IMG/VR virus record: IMGVR_UViG_3300028883_000070
Coordinates: 1-45,943 of that record
Reading direction: 5' to 3' (one strand)
DNA length: 45,943 nt
Source of the DNA: a virus
Part shown: in pieces, positions 10,534 through 44,329 of the stretch
How positions within the stretch are numbered: position 1 is the stretch's first letter
How the letters are laid out: the number at the start of each line of letters is the position of its first letter
Program-made: the position numbers and the translations under genes
The notes under the pieces: model-generated
Told to the model about the DNA's origin: nothing
Database searches by the model: none
What the model saw: only the letters and a program-made list of their open reading frames with translations

Positions 10534-10786
10534 AGATCCGAATTTCAGTGAGAGCGAAAAGGATAAGGCGTTAGCGGATATACACGCGGCGCATTATGTC
10601 AGGCCGTATGATCCAAAAAGGGACATCACGAAAGAAGAACTTGCGAAGGCGTTGGGATTCAAGACTTCCCGCAGCGTCCCGGATTGGGTGAGAAGGAATC
10701 CGGGTATTGTCGAGGCGCATGAGGTCCACTTCCCTAGCGGGTGCAAGGGCAAGGTATACCGAATGGTAAACAGAAACAAAGAATAG
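10520..10786 (+). CDS. Small protein with helix-turn-helix-like segment
   Basis: 88 residues from ATG 10520, overlapping the phosphoesterase gene. The segment ITKEELAKALGFKTSRSVPDW could form a winged or helix-turn-helix unit, followed by a short beta region (EVHFPSGCKGKVYRMV). It might be a DNA-binding regulator. It lies directly upstream of the palindrome-rich control region, which supports that idea weakly. Confidence 0.5.
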   Translation: MPEIEDPNFSESEKDKALADIHAAHYVRPYDPKRDITKEELAKALGFKTSRSVPDWVRRNPGIVEAHEVHFPSGCKGKVYRMVNRNKE

Positions 10787-10791
10787 GTGTT

Positions 10792-10816
10792 AACTATTCG
10801 GAATTTCCGAATAGTT
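10792..10816. promoter_or_regulatory. Inverted repeat, terminator or operator
   Basis: AACTATTCGG and CCGAATAGTT flank AATTT, and the sequence after it is T-rich (GTTATTTCTATTTG), so it can act as a terminator for the preceding genes. A second copy with the same design (AACTATCCGG, five bases, CCGGACAGTT) lies at 10889-10913 with one mismatch. The pair may be operators for the same protein. Confidence 0.6.
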
Positions 10817-10862
10817 GTTATTTCTATTTGTTCAGGATAGTATACACATTTTGTCTATTATT

Positions 10863-10887
10863 AGTTGTACGACCTGGGTGTACAACT
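10863..10887. promoter_or_regulatory. GTAC-centred inverted repeat
   Basis: AGTTGTAC and GTACAACT are perfect arms around nine bases, inside the 305-base gene-free stretch 10787-11091. This stretch separates the late region from the early promoter. It resembles an operator for a dimeric regulator. Confidence 0.45.
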
Positions 10888-10888
10888 G

Positions 10889-10913
10889 AACTATCCGGGA
10901 ATACCGGACAGTT
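10889..10913. promoter_or_regulatory. Second AACTAT-type inverted repeat
   Basis: AACTATCCGG and CCGGACAGTT surround GAATA, with one A/C mismatch in the arms. Arm length and spacer equal those of the repeat at 10792-10816, and seven of the ten arm positions are pairwise conserved or compensated. It is not followed by a T-run, so here an operator is likelier than a terminator. Confidence 0.45.
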
Positions 10914-10917
10914 GCCA

Positions 10918-10975
10918 GTGTTTTTTGTACGGCGATAATACCCCGTGCAAGGTATTTACTATGTACAAAAAACAC
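10918..10975. promoter_or_regulatory. Nested palindrome (58 bp)
   Basis: The outer arms GTGTTTTTTGTAC (10918-10930) and GTACAAAAAACAC (10963-10975) are perfect 13-mers. Inside them, AATACC (10937-10942) and GGTATT (10951-10956) form a second palindrome around CCGTGCAA. As DNA it could be a multi-site operator; as RNA, a long hairpin. It ends 28 bases before the -35 box of the early promoter. Confidence 0.55.
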
Positions 10976-11003
10976 TAATTTGCGTTACATGACAAATTGG
11001 GTA

Positions 11004-11031
11004 TTGACTTTTGTTCCAAAATCCTTATACT
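11004..11031 (+). promoter_or_regulatory. Sigma70-type promoter for early operon
   Basis: TTGACT, 16 bases, then TATACT. The expected start is near 11038, giving a leader of about 55 bases before the ribosome binding site of the gene at 11092. It is one of the best promoter matches in the window and sits directly after the palindrome cluster. Confidence 0.75.
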
Positions 11032-17846: not shown

Positions 17847-18428
17847 TTAATATTCGCTAGGTAACAAAATGGTCCAGTATCGCCCATCATAAGAGGCGTA
17901 CAGCTTGATACAGGCTGGAAAATCGGTAAAGGGGATTTCCTGAACTGCCAGCGGTTCATCCCCGGCCCCCGTGCATTTAATAAAGGCTGTTTGATCCCGG
18001 TTTACGGTCAATTCCCAAACCTGAAAAACCTCATCCCGGACGGCCTTTTTTTGCATGTATGAGGCGATCAGATCCATAAGCCAAAAGGCCCCGTATTTCT
18101 CCGCAACGTGCAAGGCCCCATCAGTTAACACCCAATTTCCGAAAAGCATTGACCAGCGGTGAAATTTGGTGGTCCCGGTAAACTGGTGAATGTCCGGCAA
18201 CTCGCCGGCGATCGGCCCCGTGCGCTGCGCCTGATCCCACCCCTCAAACCATGCCTTAATCAATACCTGCATTTCATGCTCCGGGCGTGCGTCCCCGATC
18301 TTCAAAAGCCGCTTGTCAAGCCTGGGTGATCTTGGCCACTCATACCCGTAGGCCGTTTCCCCTAAGTCGTGGGCTGTTTCTCTCAGTGTGTCTAATACCT
18401 GGGCTGGTGTTTTTGTTTGCGTGTTCAT
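17847..18428 (-). CDS. DUF6876-like protein
   Basis: 193 residues. The block HQFTGTTKFHRW, then VLTDGALHVAEKYGAFWLMDLIASY, VWELTVNRDQTAFI and QEIPFTDFPA matches the DUF6876 pattern, a family found next to mobile-element and plasmid genes with unknown function. The N-terminus MNTQTKTPA and the leader resemble those of the ArdC-like gene upstream. It is the first gene after a minus-strand promoter. Confidence 0.7.
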   Translation of the reverse strand: MNTQTKTPAQVLDTLRETAHDLGETAYGYEWPRSPRLDKRLLKIGDARPEHEMQVLIKAWFEGWDQAQRTGPIAGELPDIHQFTGTTKFHRWSMLFGNWVLTDGALHVAEKYGAFWLMDLIASYMQKKAVRDEVFQVWELTVNRDQTAFIKCTGAGDEPLAVQEIPFTDFPACIKLYASYDGRYWTILLPSEY

Positions 18429-18493
18429 TTCCTTTTTTCCTTTTCTGGTTCGGTCTGTGTCCCTTGCGGGTTTGTGTTGTGTAACAAGTTTAC

Positions 18494-19185: not shown

Positions 19186-20496
19186 TTATTCGATCTCACC
19201 CGTGATACATTCAACGGCCTTATATGCCTGGTTCGCTGCTTTGATAATCAACCCGCGGTCATCATTCAAGGCTTTAAGCCAGCTGTCAATATAGGCGGCG
19301 GTCCGTTCAACTTCCCGCTTTCCCTCAAACCCTACCATATTCAGCAGCATAGCTGAACCCAACTCCGCGGTTAACTCTTCCCTTGCGTATCCAGGCGATC
19401 CAACCCCGTGATTTTCTGGATACTCACGATCAAGCCGCTTTTTATGTCCCGTGCTATGCGTCAATTCGTGGAATAGTGTCCCGAAATAACCCGCGTCCGT
19501 TTTGAATTGATCCATTTCCGGCATGTGTACGCTATCCGTTGACGGCCGGTAAAACGCCCGGTCTTGTTTATAATGCCTGATCTTTGGGGGGGCTTGCATT
19601 TTAGCTACAACGGCCCCGGCCGCGTCCGTTGCGCTTGCGTCCGTGGTTTTGATCTTGCTTTCAATCATTGGGGGGATCTCAATCCCGTCCGCTTGCTCCA
19701 AATTAAACACCGTGTAGTAACGCATAAGGGGAATGTTGACTTCCAGCGTTTCCCCTTTGTCATTCACCGCGCCGCTTTTATCCTTAACCCGTACGATATT
19801 AAAATAAGTGATCTGCGTCCCGTGTTCGCCTTTGCGCACGTGCCCACCCTTGTTCTTGATCTGCTTAAACGTTGCCCAATAGGGACATTCAAAACCTTTT
19901 TGTGTCGCATCCCACTGCAGCAGCCATTGATTAAACCCGCGGTAAGGCTTTTTACTGGCAAGATTCCTGTGAAAGCCGGGACCGTTCCAGGGACGATCCC
20001 AGGGCACCGTGCCCGATTCCAGCGCGTCAATAACCTGCTGTGTGACAATTTCAACGACCCGTTTTTTACTCTTTTTTGTTTTGGTTCCTGTGTTGGTACT
20101 CATTTCCTTTTCCTTTTCTGGTTTGGTTTGTGCCTGGTCCTGGTTCAGTTGATCCCGGCCGGCCTGATCCTGATCCTGTTTAATCTGCTTTTCCCGCGTG
20201 CGCATATCTGGCAGCCATGAATAAAACTCATATACCATTTTAGGGACCTCATTCATTATTCCATTGTCCCGGCAAAGATAAAAGTGATCCTTTGGCTGTT
20301 TGAGCTTTTTATATTCCAGGTTCACTTTCTTTTTAGCGTATATTTGTACGCTATGGTGCCGGCTGGTAAAGGTGCCTGTGTCAACCATTTTGCGAATAGT
20401 TGACAATTCGCGGCCGAAATAGCAAGGCTCATTTAAAATCTTATTAAGCCGTGCCTGGTTCATTACTTCAGTTCTGGTCCTGGTTTGGGTATTCAT
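19186..20496 (-). CDS. ArdC-like antirestriction protein with extra N-terminal domain (possible two-start gene)
   Basis: 436 residues. From residue 132 on, it is ArdC-like: an N-terminal single-strand DNA-binding-type domain (IVTQQVIDALESGTVPWDRP, YRGFNQWLL, YWATFKQ, GEHGTQITYF), then a zinc-metallopeptidase-like domain with HELTHSTGH (343-351) and a downstream Glu in AREELTAELG. ArdC proteins protect incoming DNA from restriction. Residues 1-131 are an unrelated, unrecognised domain. Residue 132 is Met with its own AAAAGGAAAAGG site (start at 20103) and a leader like those of neighbouring genes. A 305-residue ArdC alone may therefore also be made. Confidence 0.8.
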   Translation of the reverse strand: MNTQTRTRTEVMNQARLNKILNEPCYFGRELSTIRKMVDTGTFTSRHHSVQIYAKKKVNLEYKKLKQPKDHFYLCRDNGIMNEVPKMVYEFYSWLPDMRTREKQIKQDQDQAGRDQLNQDQAQTKPEKEKEMSTNTGTKTKKSKKRVVEIVTQQVIDALESGTVPWDRPWNGPGFHRNLASKKPYRGFNQWLLQWDATQKGFECPYWATFKQIKNKGGHVRKGEHGTQITYFNIVRVKDKSGAVNDKGETLEVNIPLMRYYTVFNLEQADGIEIPPMIESKIKTTDASATDAAGAVVAKMQAPPKIRHYKQDRAFYRPSTDSVHMPEMDQFKTDAGYFGTLFHELTHSTGHKKRLDREYPENHGVGSPGYAREELTAELGSAMLLNMVGFEGKREVERTAAYIDSWLKALNDDRGLIIKAANQAYKAVECITGEIE

Positions 20497-20530
20497 TTCC
20501 TTTTCTCCTTTTCTGTTAGTTGATCCTGGT

Positions 20531-26277: not shown

Positions 26278-26817
26278 ATGAAAAGGTACGTTGTTTCTGT
26301 TTGTCTGTTGGTTGCTGCGCTTGTATGCGTGGTGGCGTTGGCGTTGGTCCCGGATCAGGCTCCTGTCCATGCCGCGCCTATTGTGGAACCTGCCCCTCCG
26401 AAGGAACCAGGTTTCAAAGGATTCACAACCCATGTGCAATACCCTGCAAGCCTGGATGAGTTGTACGCTTTGGTGGAAGATAAAGCGCACGGGTGGACAT
26501 TCACTGACCGCGGATCCGTGCCGGTGCCCTTCTTCGGCTGGCAGCAAGTCAAGTTGATCCAGCGGTTATCCATTGACGACCAGAACACCAGCCAATTGAT
26601 CATCGCCGCCGAAGATCTTTCCAGTGTTGTCTCCGTGGGTGGGATCGACTTCCCTTCTTCCGGTACGCTGCAGATGGGTGAAGATGAATTGTTCGCATTG
26701 GTTTTCCGTCACGGTCTTTCGGGAAATATCCTGGTTTGCGGGATCAATGGCTATCCCGTATTGTATGGCGATGGGGTACAAGAATTGTTCAACGAGATCG
26801 CAACTTTCGTAAAATAA
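26278..26817 (+). CDS. Secreted or membrane-anchored protein
   Basis: 179 residues. The first 32 residues form a signal peptide or anchor: basic MKRY, a long hydrophobic stretch ending ALVPDQAPVHA. A proline-rich linker follows, then a soluble alpha/beta domain (LDELYALVEDKAHGWTF, MGEDELFALVFRHG). No Cys lipobox. It may sit on the outside of the host membrane, where superinfection-exclusion or lysis functions act. No family recognised. Confidence 0.6.
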   Translation: MKRYVVSVCLLVAALVCVVALALVPDQAPVHAAPIVEPAPPKEPGFKGFTTHVQYPASLDELYALVEDKAHGWTFTDRGSVPVPFFGWQQVKLIQRLSIDDQNTSQLIIAAEDLSSVVSVGGIDFPSSGTLQMGEDELFALVFRHGLSGNILVCGINGYPVLYGDGVQELFNEIATFVK

Positions 26818-26827
26818 AAATTGCCTC

Positions 26828-26856
26828 TTGACTTTTCTTTGTAAAGTCTGTAATAT
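26828..26856 (+). promoter_or_regulatory. Strong sigma70-type promoter
   Basis: TTGACT, 17 bases, TAATAT. Start expected near 26863. It opens a 396-base stretch without recognised genes (26818-27213) that holds one plain hairpin and two pseudoknots before the peptide gene at 27214. Confidence 0.75.
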
Positions 26857-26885
26857 GTAATTACTCTTTTCTCCTCCATGAGAAA

Positions 26886-26915
26886 GCCGGGCGCGTTGTA
26901 GAGAGCGTGCCCGGC
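26886..26915 (+). ncRNA. Leader hairpin
   Basis: GCCGGGCGCG pairs with CGTGCCCGGC (ten pairs, one G-U) around a ten-base loop, about 25 bases after the predicted start of transcription. No T-run follows. It is the first structural element of the leader RNA. Confidence 0.65.
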
Positions 26916-26966
26916 GAGGAGAAGAAACAGGAAAAGGACCAGTATTGAAAATTCGGATCATTTTAT

Positions 26967-27087
26967 GCACCCGCCGGCCGGGTGGTTTACCCGTAGGGTG
27001 CGAACCATAGAAAGGAAAACCCTTCTGTCAGAAATTGGAAATGCAAATTCTAAAGATAAAGGGAAATCCGTGTTTCCACCCGGCCGG
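26967..27087 (+). ncRNA. Pseudoknot RNA element, unit 1
   Basis: GCACCC (26967-26972) pairs with GGGTGC (26996-27001). Between them, after a single G, CCGGCCGGGTGG (26974-26985) pairs perfectly with CCACCCGGCCGG (27076-27087), giving the order A-P-A'-P' of an H-type pseudoknot. Part of P can instead form a local hairpin CGGGT/ACCCG (26979-26993), so the two states compete. A side arm at 27020-27063 (CCCTT/AAGGG, with AGAAATTG/CAAATTCT inside) fills the long loop. Shared with unit 2: TTACCCG followed by a pyrimidine and A. Confidence 0.75.
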
Positions 27088-27095
27088 TTTAGTTG

Positions 27096-27191
27096 AGTGA
27101 CCGCCAGCCGCGGGGCTTACCCGCAAGGTCACTTAGGAGGTATACCCTCTTTGATAATCTTTTGGTGATTATAGATACTCCCCGCGGCTGG
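27096..27191 (+). ncRNA. Pseudoknot RNA element, unit 2
   Basis: AGTGACC (27096-27102) pairs with GGTCACT (27127-27133); after a single G, CCAGCCGCGGGG (27104-27115) pairs perfectly with CCCCGCGGCTGG (27180-27191). The alternative local hairpin GCGGG/CCCGC (27110-27124) is also conserved. The long loop holds an ATAATC/GATTAT hairpin. All stems differ in sequence from unit 1 but keep length, order and the one-base G spacer, which is covariation within one molecule. It ends 22 bases before the peptide start codon. Confidence 0.78.
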
Positions 27192-27213
27192 TTATAGAAA
27201 AGGAGAAAAGGAA

Positions 27214-27309
27214 ATGATATTAGCAAAAGTAGCATTGTATTTGATCGGCGCGGCGATCCTGTTGGCCGCCGGCGGATTCTTTTTTGTATCTGCGATGATG
27301 GAGAAGTAA
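27214..27309 (+). CDS. 31-residue hydrophobic membrane peptide
   Basis: Starts at ATG 27214 after AAAAGGAGAAAAGG. A single hydrophobic span rich in Ala, Leu, Ile and Phe (VALYLIGAAILLAAGGFFF) ends with MMEK. Size, hydrophobicity and the long structured leader recall type I toxins such as TisB, or small phage membrane effectors. No antisense RNA was found, so this is inference. It is followed by a GC-rich hairpin, making a self-contained transcription unit. Confidence 0.65.
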   Translation: MILAKVALYLIGAAILLAAGGFFFVSAMMEK

Positions 27310-27326
27310 CGGTCTTGCAGCATCAA

Positions 27327-27348
27327 GGGCGGGGGTAATGCCCCGCCC
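27327..27348 (+). terminator. GC-rich terminator-like hairpin
   Basis: GGGCGGGG and CCCCGCCC pair around GTAATG, 17 bases after the peptide stop codon. Only a poor T-run (TGTGGTATTG) follows, so termination may be partial. Confidence 0.6.
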
Positions 27349-27377
27349 GCTGTGGTATTGTTAAGAAAAGAGGCGAG

Positions 27378-27575
27378 ATGAGTAAAAAGAATTACCGCTG
27401 TACGTTGTGCAATGGGTTGATGGAGCCAGCTTATTGGCACGGGCACAACCATTACTACTGCAGTTATAGGCGTTGCCCGATGTATAAGGTCAGTATCCCG
27501 GAGCGTGCAGCGAAAGCGATCACTGAGAAGAACGCGGCCGACAATAGGTATTACGGAAGGAACGGGAAAGAATGA
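27378..27575 (+). CDS. Small zinc-finger protein
   Basis: 65 residues. YRCTLCNGLM and HNHYYCSYRRC give two Cys pairs with nearby His, a likely zinc site. The rest is basic and helical. It overlaps the nuclease gene by ATGA. It could bind nucleic acid; function unknown. Confidence 0.6.
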   Translation: MSKKNYRCTLCNGLMEPAYWHGHNHYYCSYRRCPMYKVSIPERAAKAITEKNAADNRYYGRNGKE

Positions 27576-28466: not shown

Positions 28467-28472
28467 GTTGAT

Positions 28473-28500
28473 TGTGATAACAGCCGTTACAGGATATAAT
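28473..28500 (+). promoter_or_regulatory. Promoter overlapping an inverted repeat
   Basis: TTGTGA, 16 bases, TATAAT. The left arm of a 12-bp inverted repeat (CAGCCGTTACAG, 28481-28492) lies in the spacer and the right arm (28514-28525) downstream of the start point, so a dimeric protein could control it. Confidence 0.6.
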
Positions 28501-28525
28501 AAAGTTACCTTTTCTGTAACGGCTG
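28481..28525. promoter_or_regulatory. 12-bp inverted repeat across promoter
   Basis: CAGCCGTTACAG and CTGTAACGGCTG are perfect arms separated by 21 bases that contain the TATAAT box. The right arm shares its last three bases with the following terminator stem, so folding of the two is mutually exclusive in a read-through RNA. Confidence 0.6.
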
Positions 28526-28559
28526 CAGATGTTTTGTTGAGAACACAAAACGTCTGCAG
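28523..28559 (+). terminator. Leader terminator / attenuator
   Basis: CTGCAGATGTTTTGT pairs with ACAAAACGTCTGCAG (15 pairs, one G-U) around TGAGAAC and is followed by TCCCATTTTTA. It lies between the promoter and the gene at 28587, so it should attenuate that gene or terminate transcripts from upstream. Confidence 0.7.
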
Positions 28560-28586
28560 TCCCATTTTTATACGAGGAGGTTTACC

Positions 28587-28814
28587 GTGGAAAGAAAATA
28601 TGTAAGTAATATAAGAGTGTTGTTTGTTCTGCTATTGGTCCTGCTGTGCGTGGCCAAAGCGCAACCGCTGCTTGATCAAGAAGTGGTGTCGGTTGATCCT
28701 ACGCCTGTTACAAGACAGACGATGAGAAGTGTACCCTTGTTCACCCAGGATCAATATGAGTTGTGTATTCGGGAAGGGATCTGCCCGTATGATGTACCGT
28801 TGAACGGAAAGTAA
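28587..28814 (+). CDS. Small exported or membrane-anchored protein
   Basis: 75 residues from GTG 28587, preceded by GAGGAGG. Residues 10-25 are a hydrophobic signal or anchor (VLFVLLLVLLCVAKA) with a possible cleavage after AKA. The mature part has two Cys (ELCIREGICPY) that could form a disulfide. Function unknown; its expression depends on the attenuator-like leader. Confidence 0.6.
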   Translation: MERKYVSNIRVLFVLLLVLLCVAKAQPLLDQEVVSVDPTPVTRQTMRSVPLFTQDQYELCIREGICPYDVPLNGK

Positions 28815-28859: not shown

Positions 28860-29552
28860 ATGGCGTATTATTACATTAAGCTGTACCATGAAATTCTGAA
28901 CGATTACAAAATGTGTACGCTTTCGGATACGCTTTGGCGCAGGGCTGTAGAGTTTTTTCTGCTTGCCGGTGAATACGGACAAAAAGGGATACTGCCCCCA
29001 TTGGATCAGATCTGTTTCGTGCTGCGCCAGGATGAAAAAGCGTTATCCGAACAAATAGATAAACTTATCGCTGTTCGTATTCTTTCCAGAACAGAGCAAG
29101 GAGTGTTGTACGTGACTAATTTCGAGAAAAGACAAGCCAAAGTGTCGGACGCGGAGCGCAAGAGAAGGCAGCGAGAACGTGACAGGAATCAAGCGGAAGG
29201 TGGTCACAAGGCTGTCACAGGTCGTGACGGTGAACGTGACACAGTTAAGTTAAAGTTAAATAAAGATAATAATACAGAGATAGATAGTATTATTGTCCGC
29301 TTGCGTTCTGTTTACGAGCAAAACATTGGGCCTATGGTTCCTATGGTGCTTGAAGAATTGCGCGTCATTGCAAGAACATATCCAGAATCCTGGTTTGAAG
29401 AAGCCGTGAAGATCGCCGTTGAAAAAGAAAGCCGCAATTTGGGATACATCAAAGGGATCCTGAAGAACTGGAAAGCCAACGGCCGCGGGGGGAAGGGTAA
29501 GAAGAAAGAAACCGATTGGGCGGAACAGGCCCGGAAATACGGGACAGAATGA
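28860..29552 (+). CDS. DnaD-like replication initiation protein
   Basis: 230 residues. The N-terminal 95 residues form a winged-helix-like domain (YYYIKLYHEILND, LPPLDQICFVLRQDEKAL, VRILSRTEQGVLYV). A basic linker (AERKRRQRERDRN) leads to a C-terminal DnaD domain with YPESWFEEAVKIAVEK and YIKGILKNW (196-204). DnaD-like proteins help open the origin and load helicase. The linker-coding DNA contains GTGAC repeats followed by an A/T-rich stretch, a likely replication origin. No helicase gene was recognised, so the host's is probably recruited. Confidence 0.8.
   Translation: MAYYYIKLYHEILNDYKMCTLSDTLWRRAVEFFLLAGEYGQKGILPPLDQICFVLRQDEKALSEQIDKLIAVRILSRTEQGVLYVTNFEKRQAKVSDAERKRRQRERDRNQAEGGHKAVTGRDGERDTVKLKLNKDNNTEIDSIIVRLRSVYEQNIGPMVPMVLEELRVIARTYPESWFEEAVKIAVEKESRNLGYIKGILKNWKANGRGGKGKKKETDWAEQARKYGTE
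29179..29273. other. Candidate replication origin (iteron-like repeats plus A/T-rich tract)
   Basis: Five GTGAC/GTCAC motifs occur in 65 bases: 29179, 29204, 29215, 29224 and 29236, in both orientations. Directly after them comes TTAAGTTAAAGTTAAATAAA and further A/T-rich DNA to 29273. Iterons within an initiator gene followed by an unwinding element resemble the lambda O arrangement. Confidence 0.5.
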
Positions 29553-30499
29553 ATTATCTTTCTTTGTTTTCCGGCGCAGGAGGCGGCGACCTTGCCGCAC
29601 AGCATTTTCATAGTTGGCGGTGCCTGGGATATGTGGAGTATGCGGATTACCCGCAGAGAGTGTTGAAAGCGAGGATACAGGATGGACACCTTAACGAAGC
29701 CCCAATTTTCGGCGATATCAGAACATTCATCAGTGAAGGGTACGCCGAGCGATATAGAGGCATGGTTGATGTCATTACCGCAGGCTTCCCCTGCCAGCCG
29801 TTCAGCGTTGCCGGAAAGCAAGCCGCAGTTGACGACCCACGAAACATGTGGCCTGCTACCATCGAGTGTATTCGCACGGTTAGACCCCGATACTGCCTGC
29901 TGGAAAACGTCCCAGGCCTGCTTGCCGCTTCTCATGGATACTTTGGAACGATACTCCGAGAGCTGGCCGAAAGCGGGTATTCTGCACGATGGCGTGTGTT
30001 ATCGGCGGCCGAATTGGGAGCGCCGCATAAACGAGATAGGCTTTGGATTGTGGCCTACTCCGACGGCAAGCGACAACGACAATCGGAGAACAAAACCAAC
30101 GCCAGCAGAGATAGAGGGGCGGCATGGATGGGGATTAATGAGTGCGATAGTGGACGCAAGTTCTTTGAAACCTGTGAAGAAATGGCCGACGCCAACGGTA
30201 GACGATGCGAACAACGTAACACGCCAGAGTGGAGCGTTTCAGAGCTTGACGAGGGCGGTGATGTTTCCAACACCACGGCAGCGGGACTGGAAAGGGCAGA
30301 GCCAGCGCGGGATACATGCGCCGATGGATGCGCTGCCAAATCAGGACAGAGGGGACGGGAAGCCGATTGGTGGTCAGTTGAACCCAACGTGGGTCGAGTG
30401 GCTCATGGGGTGGCCAATCGGGTGGACAGACTTAAAGCCATTGGAAACGGACAGGTTCCGCAAGTGGCAGCGAGAGCATGGGAATTGCTAACAGAGTAA
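29549..30499 (+). CDS. C5-cytosine DNA methyltransferase
   Basis: 316 residues, starting in an ATGA overlap with the DnaD-like gene. Motif I is LFSGAGGGD (residues 6-14), motif IV GFPCQPFS with catalytic Cys82, motif VI ENVPG (119-123), motif VIII HKRDRLW, and motifs IX-X RVDRLKAIGNGQVPQVA near the end. The region between VIII and IX (about 180-275), rich in Arg, Ser and Glu, is the target-recognition part. It probably protects phage DNA. Most of the gene is overlapped in the +1 frame by another long reading frame. Confidence 0.9.
   Translation: MNYLSLFSGAGGGDLAAQHFHSWRCLGYVEYADYPQRVLKARIQDGHLNEAPIFGDIRTFISEGYAERYRGMVDVITAGFPCQPFSVAGKQAAVDDPRNMWPATIECIRTVRPRYCLLENVPGLLAASHGYFGTILRELAESGYSARWRVLSAAELGAPHKRDRLWIVAYSDGKRQRQSENKTNASRDRGAAWMGINECDSGRKFFETCEEMADANGRRCEQRNTPEWSVSELDEGGDVSNTTAAGLERAEPARDTCADGCAAKSGQRGREADWWSVEPNVGRVAHGVANRVDRLKAIGNGQVPQVAARAWELLTE
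29682..30491 (+). CDS. Overlapping +1-frame protein inside the cytosine methyltransferase gene
   Basis: 269 residues, entirely inside the methyltransferase gene. The ATG has GAGGATA seven bases upstream. The product resembles a family often annotated as hypothetical in phages: LMSLPQASPASRSALPESKP, LLPSSVFARLDPDTACWKTS, YSESWPKAG, repeated WPTPT motifs, and NPTWVEWLMGWPIGWTD near the end. These positions code at the same time for methyltransferase motifs IV and IX. Function unknown. I call it from motif recognition and length; proof of translation is missing. Confidence 0.6.
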   Translation: MDTLTKPQFSAISEHSSVKGTPSDIEAWLMSLPQASPASRSALPESKPQLTTHETCGLLPSSVFARLDPDTACWKTSQACLPLLMDTLERYSESWPKAGILHDGVCYRRPNWERRINEIGFGLWPTPTASDNDNRRTKPTPAEIEGRHGWGLMSAIVDASSLKPVKKWPTPTVDDANNVTRQSGAFQSLTRAVMFPTPRQRDWKGQSQRGIHAPMDALPNQDRGDGKPIGGQLNPTWVEWLMGWPIGWTDLKPLETDRFRKWQREHGNC

Positions 30500-31937: not shown

Positions 31938-32183
31938 ATGGAAGATCGAAAGAACATCTATGTTTGTGTAATGGTTGACGATAATATACCTGAAAGAAAT
32001 TTCTTTGACGCAAATCATTTCTTTGTAGGGCCTGACGGTTTGGAGATCGGGCATTACCGCAGGAATATGGAATTTCCTGAAGATCATCCTCAGGCGTGGA
32101 AGCATGAGCAAATAGCGCATTTTGAACCAGGCAGTTATCGAGGAGTTTGGTACGTGAAAATGACCGAAGATGAACAAGAATGA
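31938..32183 (+). CDS. Small hypothetical protein before terminase
   Basis: 81 residues after GAAAGGG. Acidic, aromatic-rich (NFFDANHFFVGPDGLEIGHY). It overlaps the terminase start by 14 bases. A small terminase would be expected here, but this sequence has no helix-turn-helix or coiled-coil, so I do not assign that role. Confidence 0.55.
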   Translation: MEDRKNIYVCVMVDDNIPERNFFDANHFFVGPDGLEIGHYRRNMEFPEDHPQAWKHEQIAHFEPGSYRGVWYVKMTEDEQE

Positions 32184-33717
32184 AAACGTAGTTGTTGTAG
32201 ACAAACTAACGCCTGAACAAGAAAAGCTCCTCAACAGCATGGATCGTCAGGCGCAGCTTGCTTCAGTTGCCCGCTATAACGATGGACCCGCGGGGTTTGA
32301 GGCGTTTTTTGAGTTGGTCTTTGGAGAACGATTACTGCCCCATGCCCGCGAGTGGATACAGATGATCTACAAAGCCAAGAAACTGGACAAGGGCACGGTC
32401 ATTCAGGCTTTTCGTGGATCAGCCAAAACCACAACCTTGACGATCGCCTTCACTGCTTTTCGCATTGGGAAGGACCCGTATAAAAGCAATTTGCTTATTC
32501 AGGTCGGTGATGATATTGCCTCCGATAACAGCCAGGCCATTGCCGATATTATTGCTAGTAATCCTAATTGGAAACTGGTGTTTCCCTACATCGTACCGGA
32601 CAAAGAAAAAGGGTGGGGGAAACAGGGGTACGAAGTCAAGCGCGTTGATATTCCCTATGGCCAGTGGCGGCAGGAAAACAGCACGCGCAAGGACCCCAAC
32701 TTATTAGGTGTTGGGTATAAGTCTCACGCTATCATTGGTAAACGTCCTACCGGGCTGCTTATTGTGGACGATATTCACGATGAGATCAATACCAGTTCTG
32801 ACCGGGAACTGATCAAAACCGAGAAGATATTGCAGGGCACTATCTTACCTACCATTACCCCTGATTCGTGGGTGGTGTTCGTGGGAACGCCGTGGTTAGA
32901 GCGGGATTGTCTGCATTTCATGCTCAATACGGGCGAAATGCTGGACGTGAAAACGCCTATCCTGGACGAGAACAAAGAGACTGTTTGGCCTGACCGGTTC
33001 CCACCCGAAGCGATCAAAAAGCTGCAAAACCTTTCCGGTGAGATCGAGTTTGCCAGAATGTACCTGCTTGATCTTGATATGGCGAAGGGCGTTTTCCTCA
33101 AAGGGGAATGGCTGCACAAGTTCCCGCGGGAGGAAATCGGGAGCGATTGGCCGACCATCTTTGGCATAGACTATGCCAGTACAGCCGACCGGCTGAAGGA
33201 CAAGGATCGCGACTATTTTGGTCTGTCTATCTGGAAGCAGAAACCAGGCGGCGGCGCGGTATTGATCGGCGGATACCGCAGACATCTATCCCAGGGGGAA
33301 GCCGAAGAATTTGTAAAAGGACAGGCAGCGATCTATCACCCGCGCCAAATTGGTGTTGAGAGCATTGGCAAGGGTGAGGAGTTTTATCAATTATTGTTGC
33401 GCAACACAACCTTGCCCGTGCGCCCTATTCAGCACGGGAAGAAGGGCAAGGGAGAGCGTTTTGAGAAGCAGATGGCCCCCATGTTTTTCAGCGGCAGGGC
33501 GTGGATCATTGACGTGCCGAACCAGGAGCATGCCAATTTCATTCACCACTTCCGCGAGGAATGGTTATTGTTTCCCCACGGAGAACATGACGACTGCCTG
33601 GATGCAGCGTATATGGGGTTGATCTGTTTGCAAAGCGCGTTGTGGTCTGTGCCGGAAAGAAGCAATGAACTTGCCGTGAAAAAGAGAATGACGGCAAACC
33701 CCTTTGTAGGTCTGTGA
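32170..33717 (+). CDS. terL: Terminase large subunit
   Basis: 515 residues. The ATPase domain has a Walker A variant FRGSAKTTT (81-89), Walker B LLIVDD (196-201) and coupling motif FVGTPW (237-242). The RNase H-like nuclease domain begins with FGIDYAST (Asp333), then DRDYFGLSIW, and ends with HDDCLDAAYMG. This motor packages DNA into the prohead through the portal, which is encoded eight bases downstream. The length is normal for the family. The packaging type (cos, pac or terminal repeats) cannot be told from this alone. Confidence 0.93.
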   Translation: MNKNENVVVVDKLTPEQEKLLNSMDRQAQLASVARYNDGPAGFEAFFELVFGERLLPHAREWIQMIYKAKKLDKGTVIQAFRGSAKTTTLTIAFTAFRIGKDPYKSNLLIQVGDDIASDNSQAIADIIASNPNWKLVFPYIVPDKEKGWGKQGYEVKRVDIPYGQWRQENSTRKDPNLLGVGYKSHAIIGKRPTGLLIVDDIHDEINTSSDRELIKTEKILQGTILPTITPDSWVVFVGTPWLERDCLHFMLNTGEMLDVKTPILDENKETVWPDRFPPEAIKKLQNLSGEIEFARMYLLDLDMAKGVFLKGEWLHKFPREEIGSDWPTIFGIDYASTADRLKDKDRDYFGLSIWKQKPGGGAVLIGGYRRHLSQGEAEEFVKGQAAIYHPRQIGVESIGKGEEFYQLLLRNTTLPVRPIQHGKKGKGERFEKQMAPMFFSGRAWIIDVPNQEHANFIHHFREEWLLFPHGEHDDCLDAAYMGLICLQSALWSVPERSNELAVKKRMTANPFVGL

Positions 33718-43129: not shown

Positions 43130-44329
43130 ATGACAATTGGCCAAACCACCACCTACTCGAATAGTATTCGCACGCAGTATCTTGCGAAATACATCGAAGG
43201 TGCAATGATGCGGCGTGTCTATGACCAACTCGCTTCCCCTGTTGGAAAGAACATGAGCGAATTGGAAAAAGGCAGCTCCGTGCAAGTGAACTTTTTGAGT
43301 GACCTTGCCCCCGCTACCTCCGCAATTTCACAGGTGACAGACGTTACCCCTGTGACCATGCGTGACGCGACCGCCTCCGTCACCCCTACCAGCCGTGCCA
43401 ACGCGATCCAGGACAGTGAACTTCTGTTGATCCAAGCCTATACCGATTATGTTGCAAAGCGGTATCAGCGCATTGGTGATAACATGATGGAATCTGTTGA
43501 CCTGCTCGCCCAGGCCGCTGCCCTGAAGGGTGGCAATGTATATCGTTATGCAGCCCGTGCGTCTTTGGACGCTGGTACTGCAAACCATCGTATGAGTGAA
43601 ACTGTCGTCAATATGGCGCAGTCCATTCTACTCAATTCCAAGTGCCCCGCTTACATGACCAAAGTTGGTGGACGGTGGGTGTTTATCGCTCACCCTGACG
43701 CTGTGTACGATCTGCGTCAAAGTGCCAACATTCTGGCTGTGGGCCAGTATCAGCAAGCCGAAATGATCTTGCGCGGCGAGATCGGAGAGTTCCTTGATTT
43801 CAAGATCGTCTCCACGCCGTTCGCTAAGGTGTTCGGTGGCGCAGGTTTAGACAACGGCACAGCCGTTGCCACTACACTTTCTTCCGCCGCCAATGCCCTG
43901 GCAAAGCAGATCGTGGTAGCTTCTGCCTCAAACATCACAGTTGGTCGTTATCTGACCATCGGCACCGAGGAAACAGGTTCAACCCACTACGAAACCAATG
44001 AGCGCGTGCGCGTTTCCGATGAGTATTCCAGCGGTACGACCGTTGATATTATCGGTGAAGGCGCAAACGGTGGTCTGCGTTTCGATCACGCTTCTGGCGT
44101 GGCCGTGCGCAACGCTGACAGCGTATACCCCGTTGTATTCGGTGGCCCTTCCAGCCTTGCCAAAGTCTACGCTACTGAAGTAGGCGAATTTGGTCAGGTG
44201 GTCGGCCCCCGCCGCGAAGGTATGGTTGACCAGTGGGCGACACTGGGTTGGAAGTTCTACGGTGGATACGGCCGCCTTGCAGAAGGCTGGCTGGTACGCG
44301 CCGAAGTTTCGTCCAGCTTAGACGCATAA
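43130..44329 (+). CDS. Major capsid protein, N4-gp56 family
   Basis: 399 residues. The pattern IRTQYLAKYIEGAMMRRVYDQL at the start, TPTSRANAIQDSELLLIQAYTDYV, MESVDLLAQAAALKGGN, GRWVFIAHPDAVYDLRQS and GEIGEFLDFKIVSTPFAKVF fits the N4-gp56-like HK97-fold capsid family. The family occurs in many podoviruses and siphoviruses. A longer insertion at about 245-320 (ITVGRYLTIGTEETG) may be a surface domain. GGAGAGGATG precedes the start. Confidence 0.85.
   Translation: MTIGQTTTYSNSIRTQYLAKYIEGAMMRRVYDQLASPVGKNMSELEKGSSVQVNFLSDLAPATSAISQVTDVTPVTMRDATASVTPTSRANAIQDSELLLIQAYTDYVAKRYQRIGDNMMESVDLLAQAAALKGGNVYRYAARASLDAGTANHRMSETVVNMAQSILLNSKCPAYMTKVGGRWVFIAHPDAVYDLRQSANILAVGQYQQAEMILRGEIGEFLDFKIVSTPFAKVFGGAGLDNGTAVATTLSSAANALAKQIVVASASNITVGRYLTIGTEETGSTHYETNERVRVSDEYSSGTTVDIIGEGANGGLRFDHASGVAVRNADSVYPVVFGGPSSLAKVYATEVGEFGQVVGPRREGMVDQWATLGWKFYGGYGRLAEGWLVRAEVSSSLDA

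Follow-up and report, generated by a model that had tools for sequence, protein, structure and literature searches.

A tandem duplicate of an interleaved RNA structure in the probable leader of a phage transcription unit

The window analysed here, a 45.9-kb virus record with tailed-phage genes, carries two adjacent copies of an RNA structure composed of two interleaved helices. They lie in the ~400 non-coding bases that separate a gene at 26278-26817 from a 31-codon open reading frame (ORF) starting at 27214. Judging from the changes between the copies, the duplicated structure is real and very probably selected; it appears to belong to the leader of a transcription unit of the phage and could be assigned to none of the known RNA classes. 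We consider it a duplicated module of the 5' leader, most likely acting in cis on expression of the unit, and give this reading a probability of about 40%; among the options for control in cis, translation is the most specific one. Genes of the window include those for a terminase (32170-33717), a capsid-like protein (43130-44329), a DnaD-like loader (28860-29552) and a DNA methyltransferase (29516-30499). The phage hosting the paired units is rare and unclassified.

Both units follow one design on the plus strand, namely A, P, Y-TTACCCG-YA(A), A', arm, P'. In unit 1, the 5' strand of helix A (26966-26972) pairs with its 3' strand (26996-27002) as U·G plus GCACCC/GGGTGC, that is, through six Watson-Crick pairs and a U·G according to the pairing script, and the strands of helix P (26973-26985 and 27076-27088) pair as G·U plus CCGGCCGGGTGG/CCACCCGGCCGG. 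The corresponding strands of unit 2 are located at 27096-27102 and 27127-27133 for A (AGTGACC/GGTCACT), and at 27103-27115 and 27180-27192 for P (G·U plus CCAGCCGCGGGG/CCCCGCGGCTGG). A is 7 bp long in each unit and P 13 bp, the latter made of 12 Watson-Crick pairs and a G·U kept in both copies, with zero linker between A and P. The sequence-only reading had given 6-7 bp for A and 12 bp plus G-U for P, which amounts to the same once the closing U·G and G·U are counted. The loop between P and A' has 10-11 nt and reads T-TTACCCG-TA in unit 1 (26986-26995) and C-TTACCCG-CAA in unit 2 (27116-27126). The arm (loop 3) measures 73 nt in unit 1 (27003-27075), where a small hairpin stands right behind A', and 46 nt in unit 2 (27134-27179), where two small hairpins are predicted; the whole units are 122 and 97 nt long. 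Direct reading of the plus strand and script pairing found both units where that reading had placed them, and bore out its count of eight bases between them.

By sequence likeness the two units are paralogous copies: their 29-nt cores are 79% identical, and their arms keep a weak likeness (p about 0.04). Between these two copies within one genome, 7 of the 20 homologous pairs differ, four in A and three in P, and each of the seven is compensated on both sides, with no one-sided change and no broken pair. The internal covariation proposed earlier for both helices was thus upheld, and since the paired bases changed in step, selection has very likely maintained the fold. Sliding the partner strand by one to three bases lowers P pairing from 100% to 27-60%; a two-row shuffle test restricted to P is of low power, with 64 out of 500 shuffles matching the real pairing. 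The interleaved arrangement as a whole, with the descriptor set to at least 11 exact pairs in P and at least six in A, came up once among 300 strands shuffled under a dinucleotide model. The window has it twice, at a distance of 130 nt and with TTACCCG in the loop both times. Both strands of another 1.56 Mb of fetched DNA yielded three instances, all of them single and none containing TTACCC. Because even a single such arrangement is rare among shuffles, chance does not account for two neighbouring copies that share the TTACCCG loop. The word TTACCCG by itself shows no enrichment in the window (6 occurrences, 4.7 expected), the nested-fold z-scores of the units themselves are unremarkable, and, by eye, the differences between the copies have no synonymous bias that would point to a leader peptide coded through the units.

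A chance or DNA-level repeat (origin, recombination site or operator) without RNA function seems to us extremely improbable. Other strong inverted repeats do exist in the window (10780-11010 and 28481-28525), but the interleaved order, the compensated pairs, the retained G·U pairs and the shuffle results speak against such a repeat; moreover, an inverted repeat that is interleaved, not nested, suits an RNA role better than a DNA-binding site. As for the other structured stretches, 10780-11010 is poor in ORFs, contains three strong inverted repeats, including AGTGTTTTTTGTAC and GTACAAAAAACACT separated by a 32-nt spacer, and gives, on either strand, the lowest fold z-scores in the window; it resembles an element that works at the DNA level, for instance an operator, an origin or an attachment region. 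The stretch 28472-28600 comprises a promoter, TTGTGA-17-TATAAT, whose -10 region is covered by a 12-bp inverted repeat (CAGCCGTTACAG/CTGTAACGGCTG); a long hairpin leader then precedes a 75-codon ORF at 28587.

The sequence-only reading had described the units as H-type pseudoknots. The shared design and the compensated helices of that description stand; as to A and P forming simultaneously, the covariation backs each helix singly and does not imply their joint formation. Because P, at 13 bp, is longer than one helical turn, P' must thread the loop of A, or else A must open. An A-P rod with the 10-11 nt strand running along P would be geometrically possible. In both units P would compete with a hairpin h, in which TTACCCG can pair with the 5' strand of P, over the 3' half of that strand: 26979-26983/26989-26993 (CGGGT/ACCCG) in unit 1 and 27110-27114/27120-27124 (GCGGG/CCCGC) in unit 2. 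The nested A+h fold is predicted at -18.4 kcal/mol for unit 1 and -18.7 kcal/mol for unit 2, leaving GCCRGCC open on the 5' side, and P alone at -30.2 kcal/mol in each; in the complete units the P fold is predicted to be favoured over the A fold by 10-11 kcal/mol. The copies resemble each other most in the open GCCRGCC and in the displaced CCCG, which would suit a toehold-and-displacement order during transcription.

The conservation of the loop also bears on a tandem riboswitch-like or protein-binding aptamer, in which TTACCCG in loop 2 would be recognised and two copies would steepen the response. Tandem aptamers are known, and a nearly identical loop amid covarying helices is the usual pattern of a binding site; however, the same conservation can also be explained by pairing with the GGG of P, homologues were found in our searches neither beside metabolic genes nor elsewhere, and an Rfam match is absent. 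We therefore hold an aptamer to be distinctly unlikely.

On the plus strand the units are part of an ordered series: a promoter-like site and a 5' stem come first, next the two units with eight bases between them, and then AGGAGAAAAGGAAATG, a strong ribosome-binding site (RBS) and the start codon. The sigma-70-like promoter (TTGACT-17-TAATAT, 26828-26856) is intergenic, behind the 26278-26817 gene, and its 9/12 matches are ordinary, about three such sites per 2.5 kb being expected by chance. The 5' stem, TTTTCTCCTC/GAGGAGAAGA (26867-26925, -37.8 kcal/mol), surrounds a 12-bp GC hairpin (26886-26897/26904-26915), and the 140-nt segment 26811-26950, which includes this hairpin, is among those with the lowest nested-fold scores (z = -3.1). 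A rigid leader that shields the transcript from a 5'-to-3' exonuclease or an endonuclease, with the duplicate adding protection, would be served by this stem and by two stable units in tandem at the 5' end, and would require no ligand. Yet a plain hairpin would suffice for such a stability element, and neither the conservation of TTACCCG in the loop nor helix A would be explained; we judge it rather unlikely.

Unit 2 ends ~10 nt before the strong RBS AGGAGAAAAG (27201-27210) of the 31-codon ORF, MILAKVALYLIGAAILLAAGGFFFVSAMMEK (27214-27309). The encoded peptide has one membrane span by hydropathy (19-residue mean up to 2.31) and zero matches in Pfam, PHROG or NCBIfam. A candidate anti-Shine-Dalgarno (anti-SD) sequence, CTTTTCTCCT, is located at 26866-26875; it is complementary to the RBS without mismatch over 10 nt, a length of SD complement that shuffled leaders reach in 0.25-0.4% of cases. 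The same CTTTTCTCCT begins the local 5' stem and takes part in it. For three transcript ends, the local-stem state and the state with anti-SD paired to SD differ by no more than about 3 kcal/mol; since this gap is inside model error, the leader is predicted to be bistable. Words of 22 nt near-identical to the RBS region occur at 20493-20514 and 18425-18446 on the minus strand. The RBS of an ArdC-type antirestriction protein (ArdcN plus a zincin-like domain; 19186-20496, minus strand) and the RBS of the 31-codon ORF are nearly identical.

Behind the ORF stands a GC-rich hairpin, GGGCGGGG-GTAATG-CCCCGCCC (27327-27348), with no U run directly behind it. Within it, GGGTAA (27331-27338) is complementary to the loop TTACCC (27117-27123), with a probability by chance roughly estimated at ~10%. 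This stable hairpin, together with a leader that is long for a 31-codon gene, could fit a trans-acting phage RNA, a decoy or sponge, for which the small ORF would be incidental or a second product. Such a role appears very unlikely, in view of the strong RBS and good membrane span of the ORF. Mimicry of rRNA (the 530-loop), tempting by eye, was rejected, the comparisons with E. coli 16S and 23S rRNA and two other bacterial 16S loci falling within shuffle range. The loop complement CGGGTAA, for its part, is present only twice on the coding strand of the window, both times inside genes and not at gene starts.

The reading that we prefer, a leader module acting in cis, may be pictured as follows, with start site, folding order, coexistence of A and P, effect on translation and any ligand or protein being points that we infer. 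The transcription unit would start near 26863 and continue into the gene of the membrane peptide (27214) and those downstream. During transcription, A and the TTACCCG hairpin h would fold first in each unit and leave a single-stranded landing site of ~7 nt (GCCRGCC); P', once made, would pair there and displace h, so that P is closed and TTACCCG freed. The 122 and 97 nt would thereby become two compact rods, bringing the 5'-end CTTTTCTCCT close to the RBS AGGAGAAAAG and shortening the distance from anti-SD to SD. Translation of the membrane peptide would then switch between an open state, with the local 5' stem formed, and a shut state, with the anti-SD paired to the SD. In its complete form, which would make the units a new class of tandem leader RNA in phages, with each copy a strand-displacement device that passes from the nested A+h to a 20-bp A-P pseudoknot rod exposing TTACCCG and gates the peptide and downstream genes, the scenario is tentative, a possibility that we would not favour over its negation.

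Several observations support action of the leader in cis: the promoter-like site, 5' stem, two units and strong RBS in order on one strand; the 7/20 compensated pairs, none broken, and the rarity of the arrangement; the exact 10-nt complement of anti-SD and SD and the near-equal energies of the leader states; and energies that between units are nearly equal for A+h and equal for P, with the P fold winning in complete units. Against it stand the ordinary promoter match and the fact that neither unit overlaps the SD, unlike in most translational riboswitches. In addition, P at a modelled -30 kcal/mol is too stable for reversibility at equilibrium, anti-SD complements come cheaply in purine-rich RBS contexts, and our searches found no homologue with leader and gene conserved together.

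Relatives were sought by pattern scans of 2.9 million viral contigs (IMG/VR) and 84,980 GTDB representative genomes, using the core common to both units, the loop plus the start of A', and the unit-1- and unit-2-type loops. No sequence with both helices was present among the matches listed in the IMG/VR scans (DNA patterns and proteins) or in the scan of the 84,980 genomes, bearing in mind that exact patterns with 14-18 fixed bases miss families whose P and A vary freely, so that absence is not proved. Each of the matches listed was examined for A and P; apart from one lead, they were chance-like and often coding. A search for relatives via terminase and endonuclease produced a single close one, L008 (terminase 72% identical), in which the units were not found, and blastn against 50,697 phage records returned only words of about 30-40 nt. 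The Rfam and two-unit covariance-model searches that the sequence-only reading had suggested returned no Rfam family and scored only the window; applied to 301 genomes of one phylum, the covariance model, a two-sequence model of unvalidated sensitivity, came back empty. Further homologues with compensatory changes, on which that reading had made its case depend, were not found within the sensitivity of these searches, and the covariation is therefore limited to two paralogous copies in one genome.

The lead consists of eight related GC-rich contigs with an intergenic CACC-AGCC-GGGGGAGGG-TTACCCGCAA-GGTG-CCCTCCCCC, formally of the same interleaved order and with the same loop. We did not accept it as homologous: its A has 4 bp, there is no covariation, and the likeness is partly imposed by the pattern. 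The two-unit model gives it about 15 bits (E about 0.3-0.5), and an Rfam match is absent in the five contigs scanned. These viral contigs (L018, L020, L028, L042, L056, L073, L101 and L142) share a strongly conserved intergenic hairpin, GGGGGAGGG-TTACCCGCAAGGTG-CCCTCCCCC, and a second long hairpin ahead of the next gene.

If the units form as drawn, they represent a type of structured RNA that Rfam does not contain: the pseudoknot helix is unusually long at 13 bp, the seven-base loop is fixed, and the duplication provides an internal control. Leader RNAs of this kind in phages have revealed new control of polymerase, ribosomes and RNA decay. The weight of the finding is limited to one genome and a structure without assigned function; the two natural compensated variants lend themselves to simple mutate-and-restore tests.

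The sequence-only reading could match the units to no known class, and indeed no Rfam 15 family scores above its curated threshold anywhere in the window; for 26820-27380 the best hit is at chance level (E 0.72 to DUF3800-XI) and lies outside the units. Among known structures, the order P1-P2-(P3)-P1'-P4-P2' of HDV-like (delta, theta) ribozymes can be mapped onto A-P-(h)-A'-arm-P', and the 7-bp first helix is shared. In HDV-like ribozymes, a G is normal at the cleavage site. An assignment to this class is not supported, the base at the would-be cleavage site being U (26966) or A (27096). Nor is there a separate P3: 10-11 nt are left beside the full P, and h needs the 3' half of P open. The catalytic C of these ribozymes is the first position of J4/2 (PMC10879173); the bases before P' are GTGTTT in unit 1 and GATACT in unit 2, with no shared C, although the J4/2 boundary cannot be fixed here. 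Type III antitoxins (ToxI) likewise are tandem pseudoknot repeats upstream of a gene. They were rejected, as the window has two diverged copies (122 and 97 nt, core 79% identical) in place of near-identical short repeats, and the next ORF encodes a 31-aa membrane peptide, not a ToxN-type nuclease.

The put RNAs of phage HK022 suppress termination by binding the zinc-binding domain of RNA polymerase. By analogy, the nascent units might bind host RNA polymerase and let it pass terminators of the operon, in keeping with their position behind a promoter-like site in a unit with replication-type genes (the DnaD-like loader, 28860). As here, putL and putR are leader RNAs behind early phage promoters, with two related copies per phage, and need no phage protein (PMC9378689). 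They differ in being about 70 nt long, not in tandem but single per promoter, and made of two stem-loops and a short triplex with no pseudoknot reported, an architecture that the units do not match when compared with the published description (PMC9378689). Furthermore, given that the post-ORF hairpin has no U run, there is no clear terminator to bypass, and we regard processive antitermination as unlikely.

Type I toxin mRNAs such as tisB and zorO have structured leaders, 5' anti-SD pairing and a hydrophobic peptide of about 30 residues. The phage leader resembles them in its length and structure, in the SD complementary to its 5' end and in the small hydrophobic peptide of 31 aa. Unlike in these systems, an antisense RNA gene is not recognised (the one promoter-like site on the minus strand, 27031-27004, is weak and no more than chance), the gene is seemingly in an operon, and the peptide lacks a family match. 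Finally, preQ1-I, SAM-II and related H-type pseudoknot riboswitches likewise consist of two interleaved helices and are situated in a 5' leader, close to an RBS. Compared with preQ1-I and SAM-II, the phage units are distinguished by a 13-bp P, a zero-length loop 1, a loop 2 of 10-11 nt and an SD situated outside the pseudoknot.
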